DNA of 39,763 nt from Fragilaria crotonensis (lineage: Eukaryota > Bacillariophyta > Fragilariophyceae > Fragilariales > Fragilariaceae): contig JAKSYS010000592.1 in the NCBI GenBank assembly GCA_022925895.1, forward strand, positions 1 through 39,763, read 5' to 3'. The notes below the pieces were generated by a model. That model saw only the letters and a list, made by a program, of their open reading frames with translations, searched no databases and was not told the DNA's origin. Positions 5,769 to 39,763 of this stretch are shown in pieces. The translations under genes were made by a program, and so were the position numbers. Every line of letters begins with the position of its first letter. Position 1 is the stretch's first letter.

Positions 5769-5780
5769 CACTCCCCCATT
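5769..5780 (-). promoter_or_regulatory. Polypurine tract of copia C
   Basis: Minus strand AATGGGGGAGTG lies directly against the inner edge of the 3' LTR, where plus-strand DNA synthesis is primed. Position and composition both fit. Confidence 0.8.
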
Positions 5781-5833
5781 GTGAGCATAGGTCGCAATGA
5801 GCAAACAGAAGTGCATCGGGAAGAGAAGAGAGA

Positions 5834-6442
5834 TTAGGGCGACATTGGTGCCCAGGGAGCGCCATAGTGACCCATGAGACGACGGACATGACGATGGTGC
5901 AAGGTGGAGCCGAGTGACTTTGTCAAGGAGTCCGCAGAATTGACGACGCCAGGGATATGAGAGAGAACAATTTCTCCATTAGCCTTCCATTCTTGCAGAG
6001 CGAAGTGCTGAATGTCGATATGGCGCGCACGTGGCGTTGGACGACTTGCGTTCACCATGAGGATGGCAGCGGCGTTATCTTCAAACAGGGTCGTCGGTTC
6101 GAGCTGTGGATAACCGAGTTCGAGAAGTATGGACCGCAAGTATTTCGCAATCTTGGCGGCGTGAACGGCAGCGAGGAATTCCGCCTCAGTGGAACTCGTG
6201 GAGACCGTCGATTGTATCTTGGATTTATACGCCAAGGGACCACCGCCGAGCATGAAAACGAGACCGGTGATTGAGCGACGTGTAGTCAGATCGGTAGCGT
6301 GCGCGGCATCCACGTATCCGGCGAGTTCGGTAGGCGACTGTGGTTGCGGGAAAACAGGAGAGATGGATCGGATGGCAGAGGTTGGAAAACGCCGGGCGGA
6401 AGCGATGTAATGAGAGTGCGTCGCCAATAGAACAAACCCCAA
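5834..6442 (-). CDS. Copia C RNase H domain (end of Pol)
   Basis: The 202-codon frame contains a full copia RNase H: YVDAAHATDLTTRRS, the LAYKSKIQSTVSTSSTEAE segment with the catalytic Glu, LFEDNAAAI, and the ending GVVNSADSLTK. The stop at 5834-5836 lies 65 bp from the LTR, as expected for the end of Pol. Coding enters from the RT frame at about 6440, where AATTGGGGTTTG needs one G removed to stay in frame; the ATG at 6442 is not a real start. The domain degrades the RNA strand during reverse transcription. Confidence 0.85.
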   Translation of the reverse strand: MGFVLLATHSHYIASARRFPTSAIRSISPVFPQPQSPTELAGYVDAAHATDLTTRRSITGLVFMLGGGPLAYKSKIQSTVSTSSTEAEFLAAVHAAKIAKYLRSILLELGYPQLEPTTLFEDNAAAILMVNASRPTPRARHIDIQHFALQEWKANGEIVLSHIPGVVNSADSLTKSLGSTLHHRHVRRLMGHYGAPWAPMSP

Positions 6443-8770: not shown

Positions 8771-10143
8771 TGAAGTGGTCGGTCAGTAGGGACATAGCAC
8801 GTCTCACCGTTGAGGCCGACGAGAGTGTTGTGTCGGATTGAATCGCGGCTCTTTTGGACCATGAAACCAAAGTCGATTGACAGGCCTTGGTTGCAAGTTG
8901 TCGCCCGCATTGTGGTCCCTGTTCCTTTTGGAGTCTTCCGAAGCTTAGCGGCAAGGCAGATGGGACATTCTTCGAGCTCCGTCGGGAGCTTGAATTGTGG
9001 CATTCCTTTTACAAACCGGTGCATTTCTGATAAACGCCGGAAATTTATGTGTCCAAGGCGTTGATGCCACAGCATTCGCAAGGCCGAGCGGCTGAGGGAT
9101 CGCACGACGTATGCTTCCTGGTGGTTCGGCGAGAATTCCGGGAGGTCTTCGTCGGTGTCCAAGATGTCAGGACGTTCGGTAATGATGTCCTGGTAATCGA
9201 TTGTACGGAATTCAAGACCTGCGGGAGCCATCCCATACCCATAGATGTAGGGCCTTGCGTTACCGTCAGGTGAAACGGGCAACAGGCCTAACGGTGGGTC
9301 CAGGGCAGGTGGAGAATGGCATGCGGTGCAAGTCATGCCGTCGGTCGGATCGAGGATCGTGGCGGCAGTGGCAGGTGCATGTTCCGTGCATAGTTTCCGA
9401 ACGAGGACTTGATCCGAAGGGAGCGGAGCCAGATGGGCTTCGGGCGACGGAGCAATCAAGGCTTCGGTGAACGTCAAACCTCCTCGACTTGCCGTCGGTT
9501 GCAAGATAATGTAGATGTCTTGCGAACTTCGGAGGCGATTCGGGAAGTGAATATGTCCGATGCTCTCGGTGAAGCTTGACATGTGGTATCCATCGGTGCC
9601 CAGCTGCTTCGAAATGGCTGCGTGCGAAATAATGATGCCTGGAATTGTGGGAGTGTAGTACGTCCGAATGAACACGGACGATGGGCCTCCGGCATTTCCA
9701 CGATTATCCACTGGTACACACAAGAAACCGACGCCGACAGGTTGGTGCGCGTGATGACCGGCATCAAAGAGGCGGACGTTTGTGCGGAGTGGACGATAAG
9801 CAAACAAAAGGTGGCGATCGTTGGCAGTGCAAGCCATGGATCCGTTGTCAGCATGTGCGAACGAGAGTTGGCGGGCACGATCATATGTCTCGGCCAACCG
9901 ACGAAGCAGGATGGGATCGGGAGCAACGTCGAGACGGACGGTGTCGGACGGGAAGGGCAGGAAGCACGTCGGCAACTGAAATGGAGATCGAATTGACGTT
10001 GGGGGCTTCGAAACAGGCTTCAAAGTCGACTTCGTCTTCAGCGGTGGCACGGAGCGAATTCTGTTGATATCCCACGAGATCTTCTTTGTCGCCGTCGTCG
10101 TCGTCGTCGTTGGTGGCGGCGACGTCGATGTTGGCGGGTTCAT
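8710..10143 (-). CDS. Copia C protease region and pre-integrase HHCC finger
   Basis: True coding begins near 9950, where the gag frame shifts into this one. ADNGSM (codons near 9850) lies where the aspartic protease active site should be; the usual D-S/T-G is D-N-G here, so protease assignment rests partly on position. LWHQRLGHINFRRLSEMHRF followed by CPICLAAKLRK is the GAG-pre-integrase H-H-C-C zinc finger. LSIDFGFM supplies the first integrase Asp (codon at 8874). The frame is lost at about 8790 (GTCCC). The proline/threonine-rich first ~50 codons (10143 to about 9990) overlap gag and are probably not translated. Confidence 0.8.
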   Translation of the reverse strand: MNPPTSTSPPPTTTTTTATKKISWDINRIRSVPPLKTKSTLKPVSKPPTSIRSPFQLPTCFLPFPSDTVRLDVAPDPILLRRLAETYDRARQLSFAHADNGSMACTANDRHLLFAYRPLRTNVRLFDAGHHAHQPVGVGFLCVPVDNRGNAGGPSSVFIRTYYTPTIPGIIISHAAISKQLGTDGYHMSSFTESIGHIHFPNRLRSSQDIYIILQPTASRGGLTFTEALIAPSPEAHLAPLPSDQVLVRKLCTEHAPATAATILDPTDGMTCTACHSPPALDPPLGLLPVSPDGNARPYIYGYGMAPAGLEFRTIDYQDIITERPDILDTDEDLPEFSPNHQEAYVVRSLSRSALRMLWHQRLGHINFRRLSEMHRFVKGMPQFKLPTELEECPICLAAKLRKTPKGTGTTMRATTCNQGLSIDFGFMVQKSRDSIRHNTLVGLNGETCYVPTDRPLQWPYIRSCLPNKGSSRRLDQ

Positions 10144-11398
10144 CCTCCAAGATGCGATGCATTACTCGATTGTTGGCGCCAAGAGGTGGACGGTTGCGGG
10201 TGTTGGCAGAGTTCAGACGGCTGCGAAATTGTTTGTGTGAATTCGCAATCTGAGCCTTGAGCTGGGGATTGCGTTGTGCTAATCCTTCAGCGACGATATA
10301 ATCCACAAAACGGTTGCAATCTTCCAGCTTGTGACCCGGGAGTTGGCAGCCAAGGCAAACGGAAGACGCATCTTGGTTTTGAGAGATAGCCCGAACCATG
10401 AGATTGATTTCCTCATCGTCGAGGGTGGCGTCTGACGTCGACGACGAGAAATCCGGCGACGCGGTTTCGATCCTCCGGATGATGGACGTCGGCGTTCTTC
10501 CTGACGGCGGATGCTGCGAGGATGGTGGGTCGCGGCCAATCTCGGAGGCATACTCGACGAAAGTCGTCGCGAGTTGCGCCAACGAAAGTTTGAACGGAAG
10601 CGTGCCGTCGAGGCCGGTGCGCTTGTCGCGTTCGACTAAACGTCGGATCTCGGGACGCCATTCGGACGTCAAATTGCGGACAGATAGATCGAGGGCCTCC
10701 GATTCGGTGTACGTGCGAGTGGCTTGGCGCTCGCGTACCATGAAGTCTTGAAGCCGGCGGATGTACAAGCTGAATGTCTCCGTTCGTCGTTGGCGGGGAA
10801 TTTCGCTTGCGGTCGAGAAGACTGAATGCAACAGGGGATGGTGGAGGCGAAATAGGGAGTAGATAGCATGGTATCCCGCCTGCGGTGGGCATCCTTCAAC
10901 AGCGCCATGCTCTCGGGAGCCATTGGGGAATGTGGAGTCCTGGCTCAAAGCAGTGTAGATCAGACCGGACATGAAGGAATCTTTCTCTCGGACGGAAGCA
11001 GGGAGCCAAGTCCACCAAGCACCGTGGATTTCGTCTTCCTTTGCGGATTCATACGGCGGGCACCACACTCCCCATTGTAAGCATGTGGAACAAAAGAGTT
11101 TGAACCAGTGCACGAACGAATCATTTTTGGATGAGTCGAATCTTGGGAAGCTAGCCTTACGAAAATCTTTGAACTTGACCTCGCCATACATGAATTGACT
11201 CATGTAATCTTCGTAGGATTCGGCGCCGAAGGTGACCTCTGCAGAGAAAGGATGCATACGTGTAGGTGTCCGAGTCAAATTACCACCAGTTGTGCGTGGG
11301 CGAGCCGCCGAATTGAAGAGGGGGCGAGGTTCCGGGGGAGTGTGGAACCGTCCAGCAGTGATCGGAGGGCCGTGTCCGCTTGTTGGGCGAGTGTCCAC
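9881..11398 (-). CDS. Copia C Gag with CCHC zinc knuckle
   Basis: A 505-codon frame with a copia-type capsid region (FHWFKLF-like, RRQRTETFSLYIRRLQDFM) and one zinc knuckle CLGCQLPGHKLEDC (C-x2-C-x4-H-x4-C) at about residues 356-369, then an acidic run (DDDDDGDKED). Gag forms the particle and binds element RNA. An in-frame upstream extension reaches the stop at 11528-11530, and an ATG near 11516 in another frame could be the original start. The frame ends at 9881, about 20 codons past the point where Pol coding takes over, giving an overlap that is either recoding or an indel. Confidence 0.8.
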   Translation of the reverse strand: MDTRPTSGHGPPITAGRFHTPPEPRPLFNSAARPRTTGGNLTRTPTRMHPFSAEVTFGAESYEDYMSQFMYGEVKFKDFRKASFPRFDSSKNDSFVHWFKLFCSTCLQWGVWCPPYESAKEDEIHGAWWTWLPASVREKDSFMSGLIYTALSQDSTFPNGSREHGAVEGCPPQAGYHAIYSLFRLHHPLLHSVFSTASEIPRQRRTETFSLYIRRLQDFMVRERQATRTYTESEALDLSVRNLTSEWRPEIRRLVERDKRTGLDGTLPFKLSLAQLATTFVEYASEIGRDPPSSQHPPSGRTPTSIIRRIETASPDFSSSTSDATLDDEEINLMVRAISQNQDASSVCLGCQLPGHKLEDCNRFVDYIVAEGLAQRNPQLKAQIANSHKQFRSRLNSANTRNRPPLGANNRVMHRILEDEPANIDVAATNDDDDDGDKEDLVGYQQNSLRATAEDEVDFEACFEAPNVNSISISVADVLPALPVRHRPSRRCSRSHPASSVGRDI

Positions 11399-11527
11399 CG
11401 GTTGTCCACGGAAAGTGGGAAGTGCAGCCGTGGAGTCGGCTATCTCAACGTCCTCGACGGGCGGTGCGATTTCTCGTTCATGCCGGGTGCGGTCTCGTTG
11501 ATAGGGGCGTCCATCGGGGCAGACGTA

Positions 11528-11998
11528 TCAACCACCGAAGGAGGGCCCTGGCGCGAGCGATGAGATCGACTCGTGAGTGCTCTGGGAAGATGCAGAGGAT
11601 CCCGGCGGCTTTGGGATGTCGATATCCGGAAGTAGGAAGCGGATCATGATAGGGACGTGTACGATGTCGGACGGGCGAGAACGTTCCTTGAGACGTTGGA
11701 CGATGAGGCGCTGGAGCGCCGGCTTTCGTAACGAGATGACGGAGTTGCGGCTGCGGGCGTGGTACATGCCAAATCCGGGGTCGGTCAGTGTAGGCAATAA
11801 CTCTTCCGACAACCATGTGGTGTCTTCGAGTTGTTGGAGAACGCAGTTACGGATGGTGTCGTGATAGGTTTCCGTAAGTGACATTGTAGGCACATCGAAG
11901 ATCTCTGTGAGTGGGATTTCTGCCATCGGGCAGTCCACAATATCGATGGTTATAACGAGACAGTCATTGTCGTATTGAACCTCCTCGGCGTCCACCAT
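11528..11998 (-). CDS. Leader ORF of copia C, unknown function, 156 aa
   Basis: An open frame between the primer-binding site and gag. It starts MVDAEEVQYDND and ends SSLAPGPSFGG. No domain is recognised; it is acidic at the N-terminus and has no obvious membrane segment. It is in the same frame as gag, separated by one stop (11528-11530), so it could be an N-terminal Gag extension cut by a nonsense change, or a separate leader protein. Most copia elements lack an ORF here. Confidence 0.5.
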   Translation of the reverse strand: MVDAEEVQYDNDCLVITIDIVDCPMAEIPLTEIFDVPTMSLTETYHDTIRNCVLQQLEDTTWLSEELLPTLTDPGFGMYHARSRNSVISLRKPALQRLIVQRLKERSRPSDIVHVPIMIRFLLPDIDIPKPPGSSASSQSTHESISSLAPGPSFGG

Positions 11999-12165
11999 TT
12001 TGTTATCGGGTTTCAGAAATATGCGGTCCCGGATGTCTGGTCGGAGAGTATTTTTAACGCGGAGTGGCTACGTGGTTCCCGATATCATGTGAATCGTGTG
12101 ACACCGAAGAACGCGAGAGAACTCGAAATCAGTCGGAGAGTGCGCAGAAAACAGTCGTAGAATTT

Positions 12166-12177
12166 GGGCTCATAACC
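12166..12177 (-). promoter_or_regulatory. Primer-binding site of copia C (initiator-Met half-tRNA type)
   Basis: On the minus strand GGTTATGAGCCC lies directly next to the 5' LTR. Its complement GGGCTCATAACC is the anticodon arm of eukaryotic initiator-Met tRNA, with anticodon CAT, not a tRNA 3' end. This matches the half-tRNA priming known for Drosophila copia. Confidence 0.8.
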
Positions 12178-12580
12178 TGTGAGACCCTCCCTAGTACGGC
12201 GGCTCCACAAACAGTGACTCGCTTGGGAGTCGGGTTAGGACAAAGCCGTCGCAATGAAGAGGAACGAACGCAGAAGCAAGAAGGCACGACGCGTGGCGAT
12301 GTCGATATCGAACGTGTGATGGGTGATGTGTTGGCGTTCGTGTTGTGGCTAAGTATATCCTTCGGCCTCTTCACCCTTACGATCAAATGGACCGGCAAGA
12401 ATGCGATTGAGGGAATAAAGGATTATATTAGAAGTTGTGTGCCGATGGAGTACATCGGCCTTAAGCTAAATTAGTCGGAGTTGCGCATTTGATAGCGCAT
12501 CAGCATCGACCGTAGATAGTCGACCGTGCGCAGTAGACAGTAGCACGGTGTCATGGAGATATATAGAATATGCACTGACA
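12178..12580 (-). repeat. LTR of copia C, right copy (5' LTR of the element)
   Basis: 403 bp, same sequence as 5366-5768. It is the transcription-start LTR because gag follows on the minus strand. Ends are TG...CA. Confidence 0.93.
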
Positions 12581-12585
12581 ACATG
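12581..12585. repeat. Target-site duplication (right), ACATG
   Basis: Exact repeat of 5361-5365, flanking the outer edge of the 5' LTR of element C. Confidence 0.93.
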
Positions 12586-13190
12586 TCACATGATATTTGA
12601 CATCAAGTTCGACCTAACGCGGAAGGCGCGACTCGTCCTGAACGGTGCGAAACATGAAGTACCGAAGGAGATGACCTTCTCGAGCGTCGTTTCACGTGAC
12701 AGCGTTCGGAACGCATTCACTCTTGCGGCATTGAACGGACTCGATATCTTGGCAGCGGACATCCAAAATGCTTATCTCTCGGCACCGACCGAGGAAAGGC
12801 TATACGTCGTTGCCGGGTTGGAGTTCCCACCCGATCTGCGAGGACGACCAGCAAAGATTGTGCGGGCACTTTATGGCATGAAGTCGTCGGGAGCGCGATT
12901 CAGGGACCATCTTGCCGCATCGCTCCGGGACATGGGGTATGTCAGTTGCAAGGCGGATCCGGACGTATGGATGAAGGCTGCGACAAAGGCCGATGGAACG
13001 AAGTTTTACAGTTATGTTTTGGCGTACGTCGATGATATCCTTTGCCTCGACACGAATCCAAAGAATGTGATGGACGCTTTGTCCAAGGTCTACAAGCTAA
13101 AGGATGGGAGCGTCAAGGCACCGGATGTATATCTTGGGGCTGAAGTAAAGCAATTCAAGATACCCGAGTCGGACGAGCCTGAAGATCAGG
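12586..13190 (+). pseudogene. Copia B reverse transcriptase
   Basis: The open frame begins at 12548 inside the LTR of element C, but element B sequence starts at 12586. LTRKARLVLNG, motif A DIQNAYLSAP and the catalytic YVDD (LAYVDDILC) are intact, followed by KADPDVWMKAA upstream of it and YLGAEVKQFKIPESDEPED after it. The frame is lost near 13188 (GATCAGGTGGGCC), with RT continuing in the 13197 frame. About 200 residues of RT are otherwise uninterrupted, so B is less decayed than A. Confidence 0.8.
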
Positions 13191-13196
13191 TGGGCC

Positions 13197-14114
13197 ATGT
13201 CTTCATCCAAGTATGTGACAAGGGCAGTCAAGGACGTCGAGACAGAGTTAGAAAATGTGGGATTGGGGTTGCCGAAACGCACTACGACCCCACTACGTCA
13301 GGGTTATCGACCGGAGTTGGATCAAACGGCGGAGTTGGATGCGCAGCGACTAAACTATTACCAAGGGCTGGTCGGCGTATTGAGGTGGATCTGCGAACTC
13401 GGGCGAGTGGACATACTGATGCCGGTTTCTCTCATGTCACGTTACCTTGTGTCGGCGAGGGAGGGGCATCTTCAGCAATTGTTCCATGTGTTTGCATATT
13501 TGAAACAGTACGACCGATCGACGATGGTGTTTGACGACACGGAGCCAAGCTACGACCCGCGACGGTTTGCCACACAGGATTGGTCGAAGTATTATCCCGA
13601 CGCGAAGGAAGCGATACCGGAAAACATGCCAGAGCCGCGAGGGAAGCCAGTGATGATGACTTGTTTCGTTGATGCCGACCACGCAGGATGTCAGTTGACA
13701 CGTCGATCGCACACTGGCGTGATCCTCTATATCAATCGCGCCCCGATCATTTGGTACTCCAAGCGACAGAACACGGTGGAATCTTCCACGTTTGGCTCGG
13801 AGTTCATTGCCATGAAGATCGCGGTAGAGTTGATTGAGGGGCTGCGGTACAAGTTAAGGATGATGGGTGTTCCGGTTGAGGATCCTTGCAATGTTTTTTG
13901 TGATAATGAGGCAGTCGCCAAGAATTCCACCAGGCCAGAGTCGACTTTGAAGAAGAAGCACCAGGCGATTGCGTACCATCGCACTCGTGAGGCTCAGGCT
14001 CCGGGGACTGTGCGGATTGCCAAGGAAGATGGTGAGACAAACCTGGCGGATATCTTTACAAAGCTCTTGGCGGGACCGAAGCATCGGGATTTATCGCAAC
14101 GCATCCTATGGTAA
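13197..14114 (+). pseudogene. Copia B RT thumb and RNase H
   Basis: A 305-codon frame with NYYQGLVGVLRWICELGRVD, MPVSLMSRYLVSAREGH and a complete RNase H: CFVDADHAGC, the ESSTFGSEFIA segment, VFCDNEAV and TNLADIFTKLL. It is colinear with the element A copy at 2534-3514 with many conservative differences, so A and B are related but not recent duplicates. The natural stop at 14114 follows RILW. Only one frameshift separates it from the RT segment. Confidence 0.8.
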
Positions 14115-18639: not shown

Positions 18640-19700
18640 AAGTTTGTCGATTCGTCATGCGCGTGGCGACCCGATCGTGGTGTCTGGCACTTGGATGCGT
18701 AGGTATCTCATGAACGTCCTGCTCCGCCAACGGCCCACCATCTGTATCGTTTCGCTTGGCACACCTGCCAAGTGCATTGCCATGGCCGCGCCCGACCTAA
18801 TCGAGTGCGTACCGATTCGATCGGCCTGGAGTCCCAGCCTCCCTCTCCCGATAGTATTGTCGCGGCCCTCAGCTGTTCGAGGATCGTTTTCGAAGAGACG
18901 TGTTCGAGCTCGTTCGATGTTGTCGATACGAAAGCGTTTATCTTCGGGTTCGTCCGACCAAGTCGTTCGTAGCCTCTAATTCTGTGAATCAATTCCGCAA
19001 GTGTCCGTACCGGACATATGTCTGCCTGACCGGGGTTGTTGTTCCTGTGCTGCGTCACCTTCGCTCCTTTGTCTCCGTTCTTTGTTGTCGATAGGTGATC
19101 GTTACGGCGTCTGCATTTCGGGTTTGTTCGTAGGAGAAAGTCGTCAGCGTTTCGTCCTGTTTCCTGAATCGAACGTCGTCTACTCTGACTACCGATGTTC
19201 GTCTGCCGCCTCCCACGTCGGAGTATTCGCAAGACCTCATGGCGAAGAAAAGGCCGTGACCACCAGTTGTCCGACTGCCACGTCCAACTCGTTCCTGGAC
19301 CAGGATCTCACCTTCCTGATCACTTCAAGAGGAATGGCTTGTTGTTGTGCGACTCCCGGGTCGTCGTCCGCGTACTTCTTCAATTGTAAAGCCAGAAGGG
19401 GGTCGAGGCGTCCGGCGGAGTCGTGGATTGGGCTCTCAAGTTTGTTAAGCCTGAAGGTCTGAGCCACACCGTCGAGGGTGGCACGAATGGTACCGGACAT
19501 GGCTCCATTGCCATCTGTCGCAGGCTGTCTGGAGCGAAGCCGTCCGTCCCGAAGGGCGGCAGCGAAACACGCGAAGATTTCCGTCCTTTCGTTTCGTCCG
19601 AACCGGCGGAGAAAAGGGTCGAGGTCGACTCCGACTCGCTCGAGGAATCGTGCGTAGCAGTTCCAGCTGCTGCTGCGCTTGGCGCGGGTTGAGTCGGCAA
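18640..19700 (-). CDS. Tyrosine recombinase of the YR retrotransposon
   Basis: Catalyses insertion of circular element DNA by strand exchange through a phosphotyrosine. The N-terminal SAM-like part (CYARFLERVGVDLDPFLRRF) is read in the RT frame down to 19237. The first catalytic Arg is in AMRSCEYSDV (Arg codon at 19237), read in a second frame. ADICPVRTLAELIHRIRGY follows in a third. The box THSIRSG (His codon 18807, Arg codon 18798), GRWRS and the nucleophile MRYLRIQ (Tyr codon 18705) are in the first frame again. All core residues R, H, R and Y are present, with frame changes near 19240, 19100 and 18830. The RMTNRQTFF tail lies near 18650. The gene belongs to the same polyprotein or a downstream ORF after RNase H. 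Confidence 0.85.
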
Positions 19701-21426
19701 GAGCTGCGTTTGGGCAGCAGACGCAGCCAGTCTCCAATCTGCGAAATGAGGGCTGGCTGCAAGGGGATGATCCTGAAGTTCTGTGGGACAAAGGGTGAGC
19801 CATGTTTCCTGATGAGCGAGGTGACCTCGTCGTCGTCGAGCGCGAAGTCTCGCGATAAAATGTCCGCCACCTTGTTCTCTCGCCCGGGAACCATTGAGTG
19901 TAGTGGTCGATCTCGTGCGTCAGACAGAAATCAGCGAAACTCCTCGCGATGGTGAGGTGAAGCGGACAGTTGTCGTCGAAGCTGGACTTTGCCAGCCACC
20001 CTGCGGCCGAGGTGCTATCCCCTTGGCTTAGCAGGACGTCCGAGACTGGCGACCACTTTTTTCCTTCGCGGAATTCGACTACCATTCCCACGAAGGCTGC
20101 TAGAAACTCCAACGTATTAAGTGTCGCTCGTCCCGCTAGATCTTCGGGCAGTTGGTATCGCCAAGCAATCCCGCTTTGGAGACCATATCCTCCTATCCCT
20201 TGCGGGCAAGCGTCCACCCGAACGATTCGCGTCGGCCACCTGCAGACCAATCTGTTGATGGAGATCCCTTGCGCCGCTCTTCGCAGGAAGCTCCTCCAAA
20301 GGCTCAGGTCATCGCGTTGGGGATTCGTCAGTCTCGTCTTTCCACTTCGTTTCGATCTCTCGCATGCCTTGTAGAGTCGCCCCATGAAATGCCTGGAGTA
20401 CGGGACGACGTATGCGGCGTGGCTGAGTCGTCCGAGGGTCTTCTCCAGATCGTTCGTCGTTACGTGCGCATGCCTGTTCGCTAGGATCTTGTCGATCACT
20501 TTCGTCCATGCGTGGTATTTGTCCTCAGGCAGAGCGACCGTGAAGCGGCGTGTGTCTACCAGCCATCCCAAGATCATCTTCCGCTCAGATGGTTTCGCCT
20601 CGGCCAGGAACTTCGGGATGGCAAGGATGTCGTCTCTGGGAAAGGATTCGTTTCCCTCTGCGTTGTGGGGTCTTCCCACTATGTGCAATGCAAGGGGAAT
20701 CGCTGCCGAGCTCTTTTCTGCGTCTCTTGGGTTGAAAGCCCCAAAAATGTCGTCCAGGTAACAGTCGAATCTGGGTAGATCGTCGTCGTTTGCGATCGGG
20801 TAGTTCACAGCGAAGAAATCGGCTTCTCCGAATTCGCTCGACCCGTCGATCATTCCATCGTCGTTATCTACGGCTTCGTCAGAATCAAGCAAGTGTTGAT
20901 GCGGCGAGTGGAATACCTTCGGGTCCCAGTCTGATCTCCTGACGAGGTCATTCGCAAGGTCCGTGATTACTTCGGACACGTCGCTCCACTGGGACGGGTT
21001 TGGTGCTCCTCCGAAAGTCATCCTGAGTGCCACGAGGAGCAGGTCGTCAATGCTAGTGCAAGACTTCAGGGCGGTTCGTGCCTTTAAGTGTATTCGTCTG
21101 TAGGCGGATTTGCAGTCCACCTTTGTGAGGAGGATGGGTTCTTTCGGCCACAATTGTCTGAGGTACGAGATGTGGTACATCAGTCGACTGAAAGCCCTGC
21201 CAAATCGTGCGGTCGTCAGTTGTGACGTGTCCACTCTGTCGTTTACGCTTCGTCCTGGGATCCCGCTGGGGTTGAATGACTGGTCGTGTGTGAGCCTTAG
21301 CTTCTCGATGGTCTGTCCCTTCTCGTCGATCGATGTCTGTGCCACCATGCCCAAAGGCGCCACCTCGCAGCCTTCTAATTCCAGAGCGGCCTCCCTCGGT
21401 AGGGGCAGTTGCCAGCCCCTTTCCAC
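19237..21426 (-). CDS. DIRS-type reverse transcriptase and RNase H
   Basis: A 729-codon frame. RT motif A is D104 in TKVDCKSAYRRIHL, the TFGGAPNPSQW segment (about 137-147) is characteristic of DIRS-like RTs, and the catalytic box is Y223-L-D225-D226. RNase H follows with D405 (VRVDACPQGIGGYG), E440 (LNTLEFLAAF) and D470 (LLSQGDSTSAAGW). At about residue 516 (FPGE) coding moves to the 19445-19894 frame, which continues NKVADILSRDFALDDDE, the expected RNase H ending. From about residue 590 the frame is correct again as the recombinase N-terminus. The Met at 21426 is internal; coding enters from 21375-22052. Confidence 0.88.
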   Translation of the reverse strand: MERGWQLPLPREAALELEGCEVAPLGMVAQTSIDEKGQTIEKLRLTHDQSFNPSGIPGRSVNDRVDTSQLTTARFGRAFSRLMYHISYLRQLWPKEPILLTKVDCKSAYRRIHLKARTALKSCTSIDDLLLVALRMTFGGAPNPSQWSDVSEVITDLANDLVRRSDWDPKVFHSPHQHLLDSDEAVDNDDGMIDGSSEFGEADFFAVNYPIANDDDLPRFDCYLDDIFGAFNPRDAEKSSAAIPLALHIVGRPHNAEGNESFPRDDILAIPKFLAEAKPSERKMILGWLVDTRRFTVALPEDKYHAWTKVIDKILANRHAHVTTNDLEKTLGRLSHAAYVVPYSRHFMGRLYKACERSKRSGKTRLTNPQRDDLSLWRSFLRRAAQGISINRLVCRWPTRIVRVDACPQGIGGYGLQSGIAWRYQLPEDLAGRATLNTLEFLAAFVGMVVEFREGKKWSPVSDVLLSQGDSTSAAGWLAKSSFDDNCPLHLTIARSFADFCLTHEIDHYTQWFPGERTRWRTFYRETSRSTTTRSPRSSGNMAHPLSHRTSGSSPCSQPSFRRLETGCVCCPNAALADSTRAKRSSSWNCYARFLERVGVDLDPFLRRFGRNERTEIFACFAAALRDGRLRSRQPATDGNGAMSGTIRATLDGVAQTFRLNKLESPIHDSAGRLDPLLALQLKKYADDDPGVAQQQAIPLEVIRKVRSWSRNELDVAVGQLVVTAFSSP
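19445..19894 (-). CDS. RNase H C-terminus of the YR element in a shifted frame
   Basis: The frame gives VPGRENKVADILSRDF, the conserved end of DIRS-type RNase H, then SPFVPQNFRIIPL, the bridge to the recombinase. It fills the stretch where the 19237-21426 frame is nonsensical (about 19880-19700). One shift enters it and one leaves it. Confidence 0.75.
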   Translation of the reverse strand: MVPGRENKVADILSRDFALDDDEVTSLIRKHGSPFVPQNFRIIPLQPALISQIGDWLRLLPKRSSCRLNPRQAQQQLELLRTIPRASRSRPRPFSPPVRTKRKDGNLRVFRCRPSGRTASLQTACDRWQWSHVRYHSCHPRRCGSDLQA

Positions 21427-29820: not shown

Positions 29821-30021
29821 CCTAAGGGGGCGGGCCTAAAAATAGATAAAATATCCACAGATATAGATACTTTTACTTGATACGGCGGGTGTCATTTTTA
29901 ACTGAGGATTTGTACGGTGGGTGTCACTTTTTGTACGTCGTGTGTCACTTTTTATTTAGAGACGTGTACGTCGGGTGCTACGCCGCGTTCCCGTAGATCC
30001 CGTACCATCTCAATTGGCGCG
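29821..30021 (+). repeat. Iterated-motif leader I
   Basis: Starts CCTAAGGGGGCGGG, then ATAGATAAAATATCC and TACTTTTACTTGATACG. TACGKYGKGTGYYA-type copies begin at 29881, 29913, 29934 and 29967. The block closes with ATTGGCGCG near 30013. The order is shared with leaders II and III. Confidence 0.75.
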
Positions 30022-30042
30022 CTAACCCCTAACCCCTAACCC
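30022..30042. repeat. Short telomere-like array, (CTAACCC)3
   Basis: Exactly three 7-bp units directly after leader I. Too short to be a telomere, but TTAGGG-like in the reverse complement. Confidence 0.7.
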
Positions 30043-30758
30043 GGCGGCACACCATCCCATCGATCTCCACGGGGTACCCCCAGTCTGTCGCGTCCCCGGT
30101 GCCCCTGGTTGCTCCCATGACCCTCTTGCCGGTGTGACTCGCGTTTGGGAGTGCCAAACCAACAATCACGACGAGTGTCAATGATGTCTCCTCCTCGACG
30201 ATGCTCCCAGTGTCGACCGTGTTCACGAGGCTCCCAATCAGGCGCACCACCTTCTCGACCCAACGCACACTGCATACCGTCACCTTCAACATCACACCAA
30301 ACGCCCGAACGTGGGCGCTTCCGTTCACCATGCCACGAACCAGGATCACGACTGCGGCAAAGACTCCAGTGGTTATCCGACGAGCCCGGATCACGACTGC
30401 GGCAAAGACTCCGGTGGTTATCCGACGAGCCCTTGCCACCATAGCCAGGCTCACCCTCGCGACCGCTCCGATCCGGATGCCGACCGCCGTATCTGTGTTC
30501 ACGAGGTGCGTTTCGCGTTCCACACACCTCAAATTCCCATGACCGCAAGTTTCGACACCTCCGAAGCGATTCCCACCCGCTTGTTTGACGTTCTCCATCA
30601 ACATAATCGTCACATCCGCCGATGAAAGCAGCAGCCTCACCGGAACACGAGTGATGTTCCCTGGAACGGATTTTTCCACGTCGATCGGATTTTTCCTCGA
30701 AAATCGGACCCGTATCACGAGATGCGACATCACCAGGGCACCGCGCCACGCAATCCAC
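30036..30758 (-). other. GC-rich segment with long open frames, coding uncertain
   Basis: A 240-codon minus frame (30758-30036) and a 234-codon minus frame (30733-30029) overlap, and plus frames of about 100 codons are also open. The 240-codon frame would encode an arginine/glycine-rich protein with a duplicated NHRSLCRSRDPGSSD unit. Base composition leaves few stops in any frame, so open length is weak evidence. It fills the body of the segment headed by leader I. Confidence 0.3.
30343..30432. repeat. 45-bp tandem duplication, two copies
   Basis: Unit begins GGATCACGACTGCGGCAAAG at 30343 and again at 30388, differing at one base. Its length is a multiple of three, so it would keep any frame open. 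Confidence 0.85.
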
Positions 30759-30771
30759 GTAACCGCGGATC

Positions 30772-30983
30772 CCTAAGGGAGCGAGCTTCTATGTAGATTA
30801 TATATCCTCAGGTATGGATACTTTTATTAGATACGTTGGGAGTGATTTTTGTACGTCGGGAGGGACATTTTTGTACGTCGAGAGGGATCCCCCAGTAATG
30901 ATTCCTACGTTAGACAGCTCGATTTTGTACGTCGGGAGTTACGATCGATCCAAGTAGAATTCGGTACTATCGAAATTGGCGCG
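30772..30983 (+). repeat. Iterated-motif leader II
   Basis: Starts CCTAAGGGAGCGAG, then TAGATTATATATCCTCAGGTATGGATAC in two parts. TACGTYGGGAG-type copies begin at 30832, 30852, 30874 and 30928, with a weaker TACGTTAGAC at 30906. It closes with ATTGGCGCGG near 30975. About 175 bp of unassigned sequence follow before leader III. Confidence 0.7.
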
Positions 30984-31156
30984 GCTCCCGACTGACTTTA
31001 TTACACAGGCACACAAACATCACGGCTTGTCCATAACAAACTCATCATTCCCATCATGCCATCATCAAGCTCTCCTCCAATACAAAAGCTGGTTAACGGA
31101 ATTATCAGTCCTGTTGTTTCTGTCCGTCTTCCGGTGCAAAGCACAGAGATCGACCC

Positions 31157-31350
31157 CCTAAGGGGGCGGGGTTCAAATTAGATAAAATGTCCTCAAGTAT
31201 AGATGCTTTTACTTGATACGGCCGGAGGGGAAATTTGTACGTCCGGAGGGGAATTTTATACGTCCGGAGGGTTTTTTACTTAGGAACGAATACGTCCGGA
31301 AGGAAAACGCTATCCGTACAATTTGCTCGTACAAAAATATGGTGCAATTT
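31157..31350 (+). repeat. Iterated-motif leader III, first copy
   Basis: Starts CCTAAGGGGGCGGGG. TACGKCCGGAGGG-type copies begin at 31217, 31238, 31259 and 31291. Its GGTGCAATTT end corresponds to GGCGCAATTT in the second copy. Confidence 0.8.
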
Positions 31351-31475
31351 AGGTGCATCAACTCATCGAATGATAGTCTTTACGTATGTTAAACCAGGTA
31401 TGGTCAAAATGTTTTTGCCGCCCAATTTTTGAACTATGCACTCGGCACTCCTGGTACAAGCGCCATTATCACATC

Positions 31476-33307
31476 ATGATGACCACCCTTGAGATACAAG
31501 AGGTGACTACCAACAACATGTCTCCTTTGCAAGCATCTGATCAACTTGATCACCCCCCTGCATCACTTCAAGGTATATTTTCCATTTCTCCCTTTGGACT
31601 TGGGTGTCGACTCTGCCCAAAAAAAGTGTCTATCCAGATCAATGAGAGATGCATCCGTGAGCATGTCAAAAAACATGGTTTTGACAGCAGGGCCGCGTCT
31701 ATCCGTTCCCTTTTTGATACTTTTGTAACAAAACTGGAAGTCATAAAGGCTGCTGGAACAATTGAGCCGTTCCGAATTGACAACAGTACTTATAAGGGAT
31801 TTTCATGCATCTGCGGTGAAGTTTTTCCAAGAAAGGACAACGCACGCCGTCACTGCACAAGGTTGGTTGTGATCCGTCTTGTCTCCAGAAGGTTGAGCTC
31901 ATCAAATTGTGTTGTGGTCAATTTGTTTCAGAGGTGCAAATTGACAAGTTCTTCAACACTGTACCTCGAATCACGCAGCAATTTGATTACTGCAAGGCAA
32001 GAGCGGCTTTGCTTCCTTTCCTTCCACCCAGGGAAAAGCACGACCATACGTACACACACATGTACACCCCATCATTGATGGTTGTGTTTGTCCACAAGAC
32101 TTTGTAAGAAGGATAAAAATGACTTCATTTCTATCCATTCTCCACTGAGCCAAATGCATGAGACAGTTCTGATCAAAATTCATAACCAAGCTGAAAATTG
32201 GCTTTGAATTTTGCGCAGAAGAATATTTTGATGGTGCTAGGGAATCTCCGCGCTGGACTACAAAATTTTGATGCTGGTGAAGTCAATGGTATGTCACAAG
32301 GGAAGACTTATACGATGCAGCATGATCCATCCAGCTTACTACCTGAATTGAAGAAGCTTTTATCCTATTCCTATCGCAAGGGCCTTTTTGCATCAAGGGT
32401 TTTGATGAAAGCGATGAATTTGCAGTCGCATATTTTGAAAGATTTTTTGCTTGAAGTTCCACCATCAGTTGCCACGCATCCCTTTGCGGTGGAATTCTGT
32501 CTCATGTTTCCTTTTCGTATCTGCTCAGGAATCAAAAATCTCTGATATCCTGTGACACTGTGTCATCGTTATTCTCCAAGGTAGCATCGCTTCTGAAAGC
32601 AGCAGTAGTTCCCGTCATCTGCTCTTTTCAGAGCAGTCATCCACCCATTCTGGAGATTTGCTTGTGTCATCTATTCGCAAGGCTCCGTACTCCATATTCT
32701 GTCACCGATGGTTCGACAAATAAGAGAAATGCATGAACGACTACCAAAAAGGCAAAACTATGATTGACTCCGTGGAAATATCATTGTTGACCAATATGCA
32801 TTTCCATCGACAACTGGTCACGATAGTACCCACAGCCTTACCTTGATGCGGAGTCGCTAACTCATTTGGCTGATGGTTCCTGGTGGAGCCTGTGGTGATC
32901 CATCAACATTTATCAGAGTCCATGTCGATGATGATACGGCAGACATTTCATTGCTCGATGTCACTCCCTGTTGGAATTTTGGACTTTCATTCCTTGTTGA
33001 TCATTTGGATTGTTTAACGGCACTGTTGAAGATGGCATTTCATGGTTTTGGAGGAGGATCTGCAAGGATGAGAGAGTTGACAGAACCAACTATGTTTCAC
33101 TGCGTGTACAGCAACAATGCTTTATATTACTCCATGACGTCACTGAAGGGTTTTAACAGTTCTTCTCGTCGTCGGTTTAAGAAAGTGGAGCGAAAACTCC
33201 CTCCTGTCATCACTCGATACTTTTTGTTGTACCGATCTCTCGTCAATGCGAATGTGAATCTTTTTGAGCAATCCAATTCCCTTTTCATCTTTCCAAAGCG
33301 GATAACA
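31476..33307 (+). pseudogene. First copy, zinc-finger N-terminal part of the helicase gene
   Basis: The 31386-32078 frame carries the OrsD-like finger segment GCRLCPKKVSIQINERCIRE and HVKKHG, then reads on through SIRSLFDTFVTKLEVIKA without the break present in the second copy. It fails soon after CTRL (about 31862), where the second copy is intact. Further pieces are at 32198-32545 and 32873-33367. The helicase domain is absent because the copy stops at 33307. Not a functional gene as assembled. Confidence 0.65.
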
Positions 33308-33502
33308 CCTAAGGGGGCGGGGTTCAAATTAGATAAAATGTCCTCAAGTATAGATGCTTTTACTTGATACGGCCGGAGGGGAAATTTGTACGTCCGGAGG
33401 GGAATTTTATACGTCCGGAGGGTTTTTTACTTAGGAACGACTACGTCCGGAGGGAAAACGCTATCCGTACAATTTGCTCGTACAAAAATATGGCGCAATT
33501 TA
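33308..33502 (+). repeat. Iterated-motif leader III, second copy
   Basis: Starts CCTAAGGGGGCGGGG. Motif copies begin at 33368, 33389, 33410 and 33442, with the same spacing as the first copy. It heads the longer, helicase-containing unit. Confidence 0.8.
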
Positions 33503-33626
33503 GGTGCATCAACTCATCGAATGATAGTCTTTACGTATGTTAAACCAGGTATGGTCAAAATGTTTTTGCCGCCCAATTTTTGAACTATGCACTCGGCACT
33601 CCTGGTACAAGCGCCATTATCACATC

Positions 33627-35789
33627 ATGATGACCACCCTTGAGATACAAGAGGTGACTACCAACAACATGTCTCCTTTGCAAGCATCTGATCAACTTGA
33701 TCACCCCCCTGCATCACTTCAAGGTATATTTTCCATTTCTCCCTTTGGACTTGGGTGTCGACTCTGCCCAAAAAAAGTGTCTATCCAGATCAATGAGAGA
33801 TGCATCCGTGAGCATGTCAAAAAACATGGTTTTGACAGCAGGGCCGCGTCTATCCGTTCCCTTTGATACTTTTGTAACAAAACTGGAAGTCATAAAGGCT
33901 GCTGGAACAATTGAGCCGTTCCGAATTGACAACAGTACTTATAAGGGATTTTCATGCATCTGCGGTGAAGTTTTTCCAAGAAAGGACAACGCACGCCGTC
34001 ACTGCACAAGGTTGGGTTGTGATCCGTCTTGTCTCCAGAAGGTTGAGCTCATCAAATTGTGTTGTGGTCAATTTGTTTCAGAGGTGCAAATTGACAAGTT
34101 CTTCAACACTGTACCTCGAATCACGCAGCAATTTGATTACTGCAAGGCAAGAGCGGCTTTGCTTCCTTTCCTTCCACCCAGGGAAAAGCACGACCATACG
34201 TACACACACATGTACACCCCCATCATTGATGGTTGTGTTTGTCCACAAGACTTTGTAAGAAGGATAAAAAATGACTTCATTTCTATCCATTCTCCACCGA
34301 GCCAAATGCATGAGACAGTTCTGATCAAAATTCATAACCAAGCTGAAAATTGGCTTTTGAATTTTGCGCAGAAGAATATTTTGATGGTGCCAGGGAATCT
34401 CCGCGCTGGACTACAAAATTTTGATGCTGGTGAAGTCAATGGTATGTCACAAGGGAAGACTTATACGATGCAGCATGATCCATCCAGCTTACTACCTGAA
34501 TTGAAGAAGCTTTTATCCTATTCCTATCGCAAGGGCCTTTTGCATCAAGGGTTTTGATGAAAGCGATGAATTTGCAGTCGCATATTTTTGAAAGATTTTT
34601 GCTTGAAGTTCCACCATCAGTTGCCACGCATCCCTTTGCGGTGGAATTCTGTCTCATGTTTTTTTCGTGTATCTGCTCAGGAATCAAAAATCTCTCTGAT
34701 ATCCTGTGACACTGTGTCATCGTTATTCTCCAAGGTAGCATCGCTTCTGAAAGCAGCAGTATGCTCCGTCATCTGCTCTTTTTCAGAGCAGTCATCCACC
34801 CATTCTGGAGATTTGCTTGTGTCATCTATTCGCAAGGCTCCCGTACTCCATATTCTGTCACCGATGGTTCGACAAATAAGAGAAATGCATGAACGACTAC
34901 CAAAAAGGCAAAAAACTATGATTGACTCCGGTGGAAATATCATTGTTGACCAATATGCATTTCCATACGACAACTGGTCACGCATAGTACCCACAGCTCT
35001 TACCTTGATGCGGGAGTCGCTAACTCATTTGGCTGATGGTTCCTGGTGGGAGCCTGTGGTGGATCCATCAACATTTATCAGAGTCCATGTCGATGATGAT
35101 ACGGCAGACATTTCATTGCTCGATGTCACTCCCTGTTGGAATTTTGGACTTTCATTCCTTGTTGATCATTTGGATTGTTTAACGGCACTGTTGAAGATGG
35201 CATTTCATGGTTTTGGAGGAGGATCTGCAAGGATGAGAGAGTTGACAGAACCAACTATGTTTCACTGCGTGTACAGCAACAATGCTTTATATTACTCCAT
35301 GACGTCACTGAAGGGTTTTAACAGTTCTTCTCGTCGTCGGTTTAAGAAAGTGGAGCGAAAACTCCCTCCTGTCATCACTCGATACTTTTTGTTGTACCGA
35401 TCTCTCGTCAATGCGAATGTGAATCTTTTGAGCAATCCATTCCCTTTTCATCTTTCCAAAGCGGATAACACCTTCAAATTTTGGTGTTCCAAATTTGTTC
35501 AGGAATATTTTCAATTTGGATTCATCACCCGATATGCGGCAGATTCGACAATTTTGGGCGTGTGTTTCAAACTTTGTTACTGGTGACGATGAGGATGGAA
35601 AGGCTTTTTGACATCCACAGCAAGTTCTGTGGCGGCATCAAAATGGGGCACTCAAAGATGACACATGGTGTTGCTTATTCAAGCAAGCGACTTGGGGCTG
35701 AAGAATCTCACTTCAATGCTTATCACTTTGCCATCGGGGACATCCTACCAGATGTCTCATCTGCAATCATGCAAACTATCATTGGGTGA
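33627..35789 (+). CDS. OrsD-like zinc-finger and recombinase-like N-terminal part of helicase gene
   Basis: Begins at MMTTLEIQEV (33627), within a frame open from 33537. An N-terminal finger has C74, C77, H93 and H97 (numbered from 33537) after GIFSISPFGLG, like the OrsD (formerly DUF3505) region of fungal proteins. A second Cys/His group, FSCICGEVFPRKDNARRHC, follows. Frames 33697-34557 and 34588-35586 continue the protein, with MAFHGFGGGSARMREL and RKLPPVITRYFLLYRSLV. 35481-35789 gives GIKMGHSKMTHGVAYSS, resembling the GHS-x2-T box of tyrosine recombinases. Breaks lie near 33866, 34557-34590, 34700 and 35560. The OrsD and recombinase links are from pattern recognition only. Confidence 0.6.
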
Positions 35790-37659
35790 TATTCGGATGG
35801 CAATGTCGCTACGGTATCCGAAGGCTATTTTAACTGATGGACACAACTATCTTTCATCTCAACAGAAGGAACTTGTTGAGTTTGGATACGGTCGTGAACA
35901 TGACTTATATCAGAGACCACAACATTGCTTTGGACTTCTTGCCCCTGGTGAAGGAAAATCTGAAGTTTTCATTATTCCAACCATTGCAAGACGGATCGGC
36001 AATCAAAGAAGCAAAATGATTATTCATGTGTCGCCCTATAATTTTTTGGCTCTCTACCAATTCAATAATGCAACCACTGCTTTTGACAAAGTCGGCTTTG
36101 GAACAAGCATTTCCACTTGCATCTTCACTGGCGGGGACATCAATGTTGGATTGCTACCCGATGAGCTTTCCAACAAGGAGGATCTCCCAAACATTCTCTT
36201 TCTCAACCTGGACGCTCTCTTCAACTTGTTCACGTTTCATTTTGAAACATTCAAGTCGTGGATTGACGTCATGGATAAGATTGTTATTGATGAGGTCCAT
36301 ACTTTTCTTACAGAATTAAGCTTTCGGGAGAAGTATCAGGTTTATTGGAGACTTGCTGTTCTTGGGATTCCGATTGTGGCATTGAGTGGATCAGTCCCTT
36401 TGTTCATTCTTTCTAAATTTGCAATGCGACTTTGTTTGTCTCGTGACAAACAGATGAATGACATCAAGATTATTCACGGCGGGCTCCTTTTTGGACATTT
36501 TCCTCATGGATTCCGAATCAAATTTTCAGTCACACCGAGATACATACACCAAGTTGCCAGTTTTGCTATTCATCGTGTGCATGAGGGTGTGGGAGCAGTT
36601 CATATCTTTGTTGTTGACAAGTGTGATGGAGAACTTCTTGAACAGCGCATTACATCCAAATCTGTAAATTGTGTCTTCATATCGTCTGATACCCCCGCAG
36701 AAGATTTGAAGGCTGTTGCTAAAAAATGGGGCATGGGAGGATTCGACATCCTGATATCAACCTCGATTGCATTAGTTGGGAATGAAAATCCTGCTTGCCG
36801 ATTCGTTGCTTGCGCGGGGTACCTGTTCGATGCTATGCAGGTTATTCAAGGGTTTGGTCGCCTTCGACAGTACATGAGAATTCCTAGCGGCCAAATCTTC
36901 TTTGCGGCACCAGAAGCCTTGTCAAAACGAAGAATCAAGGACGATGAACAGCGATTCACAAGGCTTCTGAATGAAAACCTTGTATCTGAGGGGGATCATG
37001 CACTTTTTAGACAAACAATGACTTCGGGCGGTGTACGTGACTGGACCATGGATGCAGCATCAGGAAACCGTGACTGTGCATTGAAGGTTATGTCACAGTC
37101 ATTTGGAAAAGAGATGGAGAATTGCGGTGCTTGCCATTTTTGTCGCCACATTCCAACCCATAATGCTCAGGCTGAGGCCACCAAACGGATGGCAACTGAA
37201 AGGCGAAACGAACAAGCGACTGAACGAGTCCTTCAGAAGCTCGCTTTGTGTTGTCTTGCGTGCAACAAGACTTATTGTCGTGGAATCCCCTTATTGAATG
37301 GGAAGGGCAGCAAATCACTGCCTGAGAATAAAGGTTGTTGTTTCCTCTGGAAAAACTGTTATCAATGCGGTGTGAGTTCTCATGACCGCCAGCTTTGTTT
37401 TGATAAGACCTATTTGAATAATGTGGCTTGTTGTGAGTGTTGGGTTTTCAAAAAGGTACCAGGCTCTAAACATCACGCAAAGACAGATTGTGAAGTAAAG
37501 GGTAGGTTGAGGCGGTTGTTGTCACATCATTTTGTTAACACCAAGGTTAAGGGATCATTCAAGGACTTCCTTGAGGGTATCTACACTTCCTCGACCTCGT
37601 TCTGTGAGTTCATGGCTGTGATTGATAGTACTTACAATACAAAAAATAATTCTATTTAG
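35790..37659 (+). CDS. RecQ-like superfamily 2 helicase domain with cysteine-rich tail
   Basis: The frame opens at 35665, but about the first 40 codons are out-of-frame. Numbered from 35665, helicase landmarks are Walker A A93-P-G-E-G-K-S99, the DEAH-type box D209-E-V-H212, motif III-like LSGS (240-243), motif V FDILISTSIALVG (360-372) and motif VI Q395-G-F-G-R-L-R401. The tail has CGACHFCRH (487-495), CCLACNKTYC (529-538) and CCFLWKNCYQCG (558-569), candidate zinc sites like the RecQ zinc domain. It would unwind DNA using ATP. Fungal subtelomeric and mobile-element RecQ-like genes have a comparable finger-plus-helicase layout. It ends at 37659, 21 bp before the minisatellite. Confidence 0.75.
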
Positions 37660-37680
37660 AGAAGAGCTAAGTTGTTGGAA

Positions 37681-37950
37681 GGCACTGGAATGTTTTGTTC
37701 GAGTAGCCCCGCGGAGATTTACTGTCCGTCAACCGGGGAACGCGGGGCACTGGAATGTTTTGTTCGAGTAGCCCCGCGGAGATTTACTGTCCGTCAACCG
37801 GGGAACGCGGGGCACTGGAATGTCTTGTTCGAGTAGCCCCGCAGAGATTTACTGTCCGTCAACCGTGTAACGCGGGGCACTGGAATGTTTTGTTCGAGTA
37901 GCCCAGCAGAGATTTACTGTCCGTCAACCGGGGAACGCGGGGCACTGGAA
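37681..37950. repeat. 65-bp tandem minisatellite with internal hairpin, four units
   Basis: GGCACTGGAATG starts at 37681, 37746, 37811, 37876 and 37941 (partial). Each unit has arms GCCCCGCG and CGCGGGGC around a ~27-nt spacer. Units 3 and 4 carry changes that weaken the left arm. It lies between convergent genes. Confidence 0.9.
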
Positions 37951-38028
37951 TATTATCAAGTAATCATGAAGTGCGTAACAATCATCCAGATTGTTTGCAC
38001 CTGTAAACACACAACTACTAAAACAGAG

Positions 38029-38720
38029 CTAATTCAAACTATTATCATTCTTACCAACCACAGCCGTCTTCAGGTACAAGGACAAACAAAAGACATCCAC
38101 ACTTTGAAATGCAGAAGTACGAGAGGACAAACAGTGGTGATACAGCGGATTGAAAATCAGCATGTCACCTGGTCTCAATGCAACAGCGATTCCTTGTTCG
38201 GCAAAAGTGAAATAGTTACTGACATCAGCATCCATGCTGTACCTGTCAATGTCTTGCTGCAGTCCGTGCTCAGAAGTAACGGTTGTCAAAGAATAAAAGA
38301 AATCCTCATCAACATGGGAATTCAAATAGTAGTTCCGCCCACAAGCAAGACTTCCCCAGATTGGATTGGAGGACACTCCACTGATCTCCTTCCACTCACC
38401 AAGTACTTGTGCAATGCGCAGACCACGGAGTTCGTTTGATGGAATGTAGCCCTTGGCAGCTTCCTCACAACGTGCCATTAACTTTCTAATTGAGTTCCTG
38501 TCAGCAATGTTCAATTTCTGCGGCCAGATCTCAGAAACGCCCACAGAGCCTCGGTTTGGTTTCAATCCCACTGTCACATACTTGCCATTGTCTTCCGCCA
38601 CTGTGATTCGAGTCTTTCCACGCACTTCAGCTGCTCGCTTCGCATCATCTAAGGCATACAGAGAAGCAATTGTCTTTTTCACATGTGTCATTTTATGGAT
38701 TGCATCGTGACGGGGATCAA
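38029..38720 (-). CDS. 2-oxoglutarate/Fe(II) oxygenase-like domain protein
   Basis: The frame (Met at 38691, open to about 38720) reads DPRHDAIHKMTHVKKTIASL upstream and ends KTAVVGKNDNSLN. Candidate iron ligands are the H-x-D of SHVDEDFFYSL and the distal His in FNPLYHHCLSSR, where the Arg may bind 2-oxoglutarate. VALRPGDMLIFNP is the beta-strand before the distal His typical of the double-stranded beta-helix fold. Substrate is unknown. Coding upstream to about 39200 continues in other frames. It is convergent with the helicase gene across the minisatellite, and could be a host gene or cargo. Confidence 0.65.
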
Positions 38721-39220
38721 GGTAAACACAGTGTCACCAGCAGCAGACTCCATTCTGGCTCCAAAATGGTGTCGATTACCTTTAGATCTTCCATTGCTGA
38801 AAGCATAATGCCATTGTCAATGGGATTGGGAGACTTCTCCTGGGTGTCCCACTATAAAACACAGGGCGCGTGCTCAAGAATGACCTTCCCATTGCGTGCA
38901 CATTTGATGGCAACACCTCCTGAAGGCTGGCGATTTTCTTTGACTTCTTATTATCTCTACGTTTGCCCAGCTTGCTATTTGGCGTACCTTTGTCGTCGAT
39001 GCATCGTGTGCAACCATCACTCTGTGACTCGAATTTGTCTTCGACTTGTAGACATGCTGGAACCCCGCTTCTTGGGATTGGGATTGTCATCACTTACATC
39101 ATCATCTGAGTATTCTTTGCTGTGTGTATTCATGTCGATCTGGGCTCTGCCACCATTCCCGATGTCCAGACTAGCTGTGTCCATTTTCTCAATGATAGGG
39201 AAGCATGTATGCCGTCGCAT
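38721..39220 (-). pseudogene. N-terminal extension of the oxygenase-like gene, broken frames
   Basis: 39220-39017 encodes a polar acidic segment (KEYSDDDVSDDNPNPKKRG) and 39093-38782 a segment with CTRCIDDKGTPNSKLGKRR and a lysine-rich stretch. A third frame near 38850-38720 reads PIDNGIMLSAMEDLKVIDT. These join to 38720 only with two or three one-base changes, such as at TTTTGG (about 38767). A short intron is also possible, but no pair of sites is compelling. Confidence 0.4.
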
Positions 39221-39763
39221 TAATCATGCCCCCCCAGTCATTGGTCTCGGCGCTGCGGCTACCTGGTACATCATGGTGAGCAGCGTCCATTTCGCTACAA
39301 GAGTACAAACATTAAAGGGCAACACAGAAGCGATGCAGGATTAATGAGAAAACACAAAAAAAGTGATTCCAAACAGGTGCATTTGCTTTCTTGTTAAGAA
39401 TATTTGTAAGTAATAAATTTTTAGTAAGACTTAATTTGCTAACAATTTAATTAGTATCCAAATTCAATACACATACATGAAAGCTAAGTGTTTCATGTGT
39501 TAACAAGTCATGCAAAGGTATATTTAACAATGATGGGAGTTGAAAGATGCCGGTACTTAGATTATTATTGACTTGCATTTAATTGTAATAAATAACTAAA
39601 TGGTTGGATTAATATATTCTACACTTTATTTAATTAGCCTTAACTAGAAGTCTAAGATTCCTTAATTAAAGGAATCATGGACAAATCTGTGCGTTGAAAA
39701 TAAAAACACGATTCATTTCGTGTAACAAAACTGACGTTTTGCGATGACGTTTATATACAATTA
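39221..39763. other. AT-rich non-coding end of window
   Basis: High A+T with many TTAATTA words, no open frame of note. It may hold the promoter of the minus-strand oxygenase-like gene. Confidence 0.5.

Follow-up and report, generated by a model that had tools for sequence, protein, structure and literature searches.

At the chromosome tips of Drosophila (HeT-A/TART) and of rotifers (Terminons), retroelement units lie head to tail, with one fixed end and an eroded outer end. Starships carry their recombinase gene first at one end, where the DUF3435 captain is located, and have a defined far end. Cryptons carry short direct repeats, 4 or 6 bp long, at each terminus (PMC3212892). Fungal telomere-linked (subtelomeric RecQ-like) helicases (TLH) are multi-copy superfamily 2 (SF2) helicase genes beside telomeres, many of them truncated (PMC7473861, PMC12857005); for its own and other fungal subtelomeric RecQ genes, PMC7473861 reports no domain outside the helicase core. 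Here we describe a family of elements in the freshwater diatom Fragilaria crotonensis, represented in a 39,763-nt stretch (contig JAKSYS010000592.1, here C551; hereafter the window) of the 62.1-Mb genome, in which a leader of iterated TACG-type motifs precedes a gene for a protein with zinc fingers, a tyrosine-recombinase-like domain and an SF2 helicase.

The Fragilaria element resembles TLH, as these are described, in its place and its SF2 helicase, and adds zinc fingers, a recombinase-like domain, the leaders and a facing TET-like gene. With Cryptons and Starships it shares a presumed tyrosine recombinase for mobility and a short sequence in common with the target; unlike Cryptons, it has one recognised terminus, and its outer side runs to the telomere. 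One-ended growth is as in HeT-A/TART and Terminons, but no reverse transcriptase family was found in the nine open reading frames (ORFs) scanned from the elements on contigs C490, C754 and C592 (smaller ORFs lay outside the scan). We can name no single known kind that has a one-ended, recombinase-bearing, telomere-terminated element, with fungal TLH and Starships compared by description; the minority of sequence matches that carry an organism name come from Fragilaria. Among the titles and abstract openings listed in the literature surveyed, none describes a recombinase-helicase element at telomeres.

The leader is a multi-copy sequence. Its pattern matched the genome 128 times (100 of the 128 listed), against 12 times for a reversed control; on viral contigs the pattern had one match and tblastn gave no relative. 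The leaders with surrounding sequence numbered 112 on 30 contigs, including 58 that were found by overall similarity with the head ignored and that sort into 23 leader families. Among these 58, the head was exactly CCTAAGG in 51, displaced by 1-3 nt in four and missing in three. A search with the array only gave 60 matches, nine of them without the head at the expected place. Sorted by eye, three of the nine are headed leaders in a register offset by 34 nt, three have a lost or changed head, and three (one of them on the minus strand at window 26456) resemble other repeats brought in by truncated leaders. The match near window 26456 (-) covers 80 nt of sequence within a truncated leader and is probably another dispersed repeat. 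The motif spacing is preserved across families and is not random: 51 of 71 motif steps fell at 19-22 or 30-34 bp, a fraction that averaged 14% and reached at most 29% when these families were shuffled 20 times. Motif copy number alone is a weaker point, with only a modest excess (two of eight tested families exceeded the maximum of 60 base shuffles). The proposal, made in the initial annotation of the window, that the leader is the terminus of a mobile family is supported, and neither outcome named there as refuting it, a single genomic copy or random spacing elsewhere, occurred.

Leaders have a single polarity. No mixing of strands occurred on any of the 22 contigs with at least two leaders. 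Telomeres are present in the data on four contigs (C23, C490, C592 and C754), each of which opens with a long (CCCTAA/CCCCTAA)n array; every one of the four has its leaders facing the telomere. The terminal elements of C490, C592 and C754 have an SF2 helicase gene adjoining the telomere. The intact case, C490, consists of a leader at 10243, a 1,324-aa helicase protein encoded in a single frame (9864 to 5893), a long ORF running the opposite way, repeats and the telomere. C754 was 99.6% identical to C490 over 9.78 kb (a comparison limited by the sequence retrieved, which ends 243 bp before the leader) and has the same leader with different DNA ahead of it. Followed as far as the telomere, the comparison of these two ends revealed no recognisable second terminus. 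A longer version, with four additional ORFs in common, is present on C592 and C783, and the terminal element of C23 has kept its leader, the helicase found there being the last 52 residues only. Where helicase similarity is found, it starts ~290-420 nt past the leader start. Several leaders have no detectable helicase behind them (e.g. C23:3690, C783:6210), as expected for non-autonomous derivatives; bodies with and without the gene had been anticipated in the initial annotation. At C411:23107, TTAGGGG repeats in telomere orientation cap a truncated helicase gene, and beyond them lie further DNA and another leader; this is a healed chromosome tip that later became internal. A degenerate interstitial telomere array of a few hundred bp at C427:70.3-70.8 kb was read as unrelated, with no leader on that contig among the matches listed.

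We then compared leader base 1 with uninterrupted DNA. The sequence upstream of 39 leaders has an intact homologue that is readable across the joint, homologues that themselves carry CCTAAGG there being excluded from the count; 33 were kept after removal of two without the exact CCTAAGG start and then four that repeated the same 15-nt upstream sequence. The homologue continued with CC or more in 27 of the 33 junctions, against a background of 4.4% (binomial 2e-31, independence assumed), and with CCT or more in 18, against 1.3% (binomial 6e-26, independence likewise assumed). No recognisable target remainder was present in the 26 junctions of the first set in which the lost continuation was searched for outward on the same contig: 11 gave no match, and the matches of the other 15 were taken on inspection for same-family copies, other homologues or tandem repeats. 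Eleven locus pairs have common upstream sequence, and in four of these different leader families start at the same base (one within a tandem repeat). Short leader stubs stand ahead of some leaders, e.g. before C588:12139.

Upstream of the joint, C was found at base -1 in 53% and, more weakly, at base -2 in 36% of 90 distinct upstream sequences, and no wider target consensus stands out. With C at -1, many junctions read CCCTAAGG, which contains one telomere unit CCCTAA. Addition of leaders onto telomere repeats was considered and rejected: CCCTAA/TTAGGG lay within 40 nt upstream in four of the 112 leaders, and in each of these cases it belongs to a leader head and not to a telomere tract.

The element protein looks like a recombinase fused to a helicase: zinc fingers are followed by a tyrosine-recombinase-like domain and an SF2 helicase. 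In the catalytic set R-K-(H)-R-H/W-Y, five of six positions were invariant in 32 of 32 sequences, with an H-Y spacing of 9, the sixth (the box II histidine) being replaced, and the predicted structure matches a tyrosine-recombinase catalytic-domain fold. A PDB profile search returned helicases for the protein, and a DEAD helicase domain was detected (E 2e-13) in the nine-ORF scan. Of the eight window ORFs submitted to Pfam, DEAD alone scored above the curated cut-off of its family; Helicase_C, DUF6824, zf-RVT, DUF1644 and TRI9 did not reach theirs.

Pairs of related elements suggest that specificity may be exchanged as a block. Between C588:12139 and C783:13479, identity was 44-60% at 100-400 nt past the leader start, rose to 88% in the block that follows and reached 94-100% at 500-1,100 nt. 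Because this switch falls near the end of the first zinc finger, the array and the first finger appear to travel together. The same type of switch occurs later, at ~700 nt, between C411:13318 and C411:7568 (43-77% to 91-96%). The linked change of array and first finger fits recognition of one by the other, as judged from these alignments, and gives indirect support to the idea of the initial annotation that each array tracks its own binding protein; it could also be produced by close linkage alone.

From this architecture and the junction rule we infer a recombinase mechanism, and we consider this model as a whole somewhat probable. In it, the element is mobile and one-ended, with the leader as its sole defined (inner) end and the telomere as the other. 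The body would run outward from the leader, with subtelomeric repeat and telomere on its outer side. The element protein would bind the motif array of its own leader, with family specificity set by zinc finger 1. Its recombinase domain would act on the first leader bases (CCT of CCTAAGG) and pair them with a CC or CCT that lies on a different chromosome; copying or strand exchange, aided by the helicase, would move the leader-to-telomere segment onto the new chromosome. The old distal piece of the target chromosome would be lost, so that each transfer would replace a tip. Recombination at the leader head with CC(T), and subsequent exchange or copying as far as the telomere, would explain the fixed inner end, the telomeric outer end, the CC(T) joints and the loss of the tip, as well as exchanges between leader families at one base. 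More tentatively, the element may be a transposable chromosome end in the full sense, whose zinc-finger tyrosine recombinase-helicase swaps or copies tips onto CC(T) sites and whose arrays and first finger form a swappable specificity cassette. If so, it would represent a mode of transposition that needs no second end, and chromosome tips of a freshwater diatom would be renewed or hijacked without telomerase or a retroelement. It would also provide a natural DNA-binding specificity cassette that changes along with its binding array, and other subtelomeric helicase families, e.g. those of fungi, would be worth checking for a hidden recombinase domain. Should fungal TLH share the recombinase domain and the leaders, the finding would describe a class that includes them.

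Several observations weigh against the recombinase model. The histidine of box II of tyrosine recombinases is replaced by T, R, V, I or L. The structure model has a mean predicted local distance difference test score (pLDDT) of 69.7, falling below 50 at 635-780, the tyrosine region, and Foldseek alone gave no match at E<=0.001. Pfam detected no recombinase family, PF00589 included, in the 32 element-protein sequences, and the element gene is not among the 62 places listed for PF00589 genome-wide. With hhalign, the recombinase region compared with Cre, XerD, lambda Int and six diatom recombinase-like ORFs reached a probability of <1%, but the positive control failed equally, so this comparison is uninformative. 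Six of the 33 junctions have 0-1 nt in common with the homologue, and for the 54 of the 112 leaders that were retrieved by a pattern including CCTAAGG the exact start is partly selected. Nearness to a chromosome end is established on the four telomere contigs alone; leaders on C122, C572, C521, C300 and C349 and one on C121 face contig ends 30-75 kb off, and a leader chain on C273 (33164-37500) lies ~155 kb from the contig end it faces. We hold the description of a one-ended element facing the telomere with much more confidence than the enzymology. As judged by eye, the element at C273:33164-37500 is interrupted by unrelated transposon-like sequence.

The same ends could have spread by host break-induced replication or ectopic subtelomere recombination, as yeast Y' elements do, with the encoded protein as a passenger. 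The near-identical ends of C490 and C754 are in line with this, short bases in common are usual in microhomology repair, and the healed tip at C411:23107 records breakage and healing. However, a host process would begin anywhere in 10-13 kb, yet 55 of the 58 leaders found without regard to the head have CCTAAGG at or within 3 nt of their start. Break-induced replication accounts for the copying of tips but not for this fixed start, and a host process leaves unexplained that different leader families share one upstream base; we regard it as unlikely. End addition by reverse transcription in the manner of HeT-A or Terminons, from an RNA ending in the leader complement and primed by chromosome 3' ends in CC(T), would yield the fixed attached end, the eroded outer end, the polarity, priming-like pairing of 2-3 nt and the tandem short leader stubs. 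It is distinctly improbable, as the scanned element ORFs lack a reverse transcriptase and the junctions inspected have no consistent poly(T) before the leader, though RNA 3' ends can be non-polyadenylated.

An ordinary two-ended tyrosine-recombinase transposon of Crypton or Starship type, inserted at CC(T) and later deprived of its distal part, would likewise have a recombinase-like gene first at one end and short bases in common at its insertion sites. The lack of a second terminus on the two ends followed to the telomere, the missing target remainders and the single orientation on 22 of 22 contigs make this very unlikely. Leaders might instead serve a subtelomeric gene family only as promoter or silencer arrays and not be mobile termini, given the start of helicase similarity ~290-420 nt past the leader start where it is found. 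Such a function may hold in addition, but the junction data make it insufficient as the whole explanation: the joint of nucleotide 1 to unrelated truncated DNA is unexplained, and some leaders (the C23:3690 and C783:6210 cases) have no detectable gene. As the sole account it is highly improbable.

From position 29821 to its end, the window contains the following features:

29821..30022 (+), leader type I (GGGTGTC class), cut after ~202 nt; anchors 29881, 29913, 29934, 29967
30022..30042 (+), telomere-like tract CTAACCCCTAACCCCTAACCC, recognised from sequence, in the orientation opposite to that of the right-hand telomere
30039..30770 (-), fragment, tail of an antisense ORF with 57% identity to C754 ORF 4502-5956
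30772..30980 (+), leader type II (GGGAG class); anchors 30832, 30852, 30874, 30906, 30928
31157..33307 (+), element copy 1, type III: leader, then helicase protein residues ~9-597, cut off by the next leader
31157..31330 (+), first leader type III; anchors 31217, 31238, 31259, 31291
33308..39763 (+), element copy 2, type III, running up to the contig end
33308..33481 (+), second leader type III; anchors 33368, 33389, 33410, 33442
33720..37617 (+), zinc-finger/tyrosine-recombinase-like/SF2 helicase protein, residues 9-1318 of the C490 homologue at 52-54% identity, frame broken
37681..38005 (+), 65-bp units in tandem, separating the convergent helicase and TET-like genes
38035..38976 (-), TET-like 2-oxoglutarate dioxygenase, residues 168-485 of the C592 homologue at 56-57% identity, frame broken

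All four leaders start CCTAAGGG, as first described. The TACG-anchored spacings given in the initial annotation hold for leader I (32, 21, 33) and for both type III leaders (21, 21, 32); in leader II (20, 22, 32, 22) the 54-bp gap divides into 32 then 22 and not in the order 22 then 32. Both type III leaders lie 5' of a helicase gene, as stated there, and elsewhere types I and II precede one too. Taken as a whole, that earlier interpretation is partly supported; it overlooked the telomere as the other end, the proposed replacement of chromosome ends and the recombinase-like domain in the protein.

Two window joints illustrate the junction rule. Leader II is joined to the ORF fragment at CC, where the homologue at C411:13973 continues CCGTCG, and the leader at 33308 is joined at CCT, where the intact homologue reads on as CCTTCAAA. 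On the best reading, the window represents the inner portion of a chromosome tip and records, outward, four successive end replacements: leader I, leader II, type III copy 1 and type III copy 2. Aligned over 2172 columns, copy 1 and the start of copy 2 are 98.3% identical with 25 gap openings; some of the frame breaks may therefore be errors of assembly. The tract at 30022-30042, with unit (CTAACCCC)n in the wrong orientation, stands between truncated leader I and the ORF fragment; it may be filler from break repair or the left-hand end of a linear molecule.

The TET-like protein has a TET-like fold with HxD...H, and the PDB profile search returned nothing for it. Unlike described members of the TET family (TET2, CcTet, NgTET1, CMD1), its gene lies beside a helicase-recombinase in a telomere-facing element. 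Among the matches listed, the TET-like ORF opposes the helicase on the contigs that have both, at least 14 in number; C12 is an exception in that its nearer TET-like copy opposes the helicase and others ~146 kb away do not. The protein perhaps demethylates the arrays. TET-like dioxygenase genes are numerous (at least 92 matches), many of them on contigs without a helicase among the matches listed.

In the remainder of the window, inspection of translations by eye identified several Copia-type retrotransposon ORFs on both strands at 104-14114. A DIRS-like retroelement, also recognised by eye, lies at 18708-21426 (-), with a reverse-transcriptase-like ORF and pieces matching a tyrosine-recombinase-like ORF at C40.
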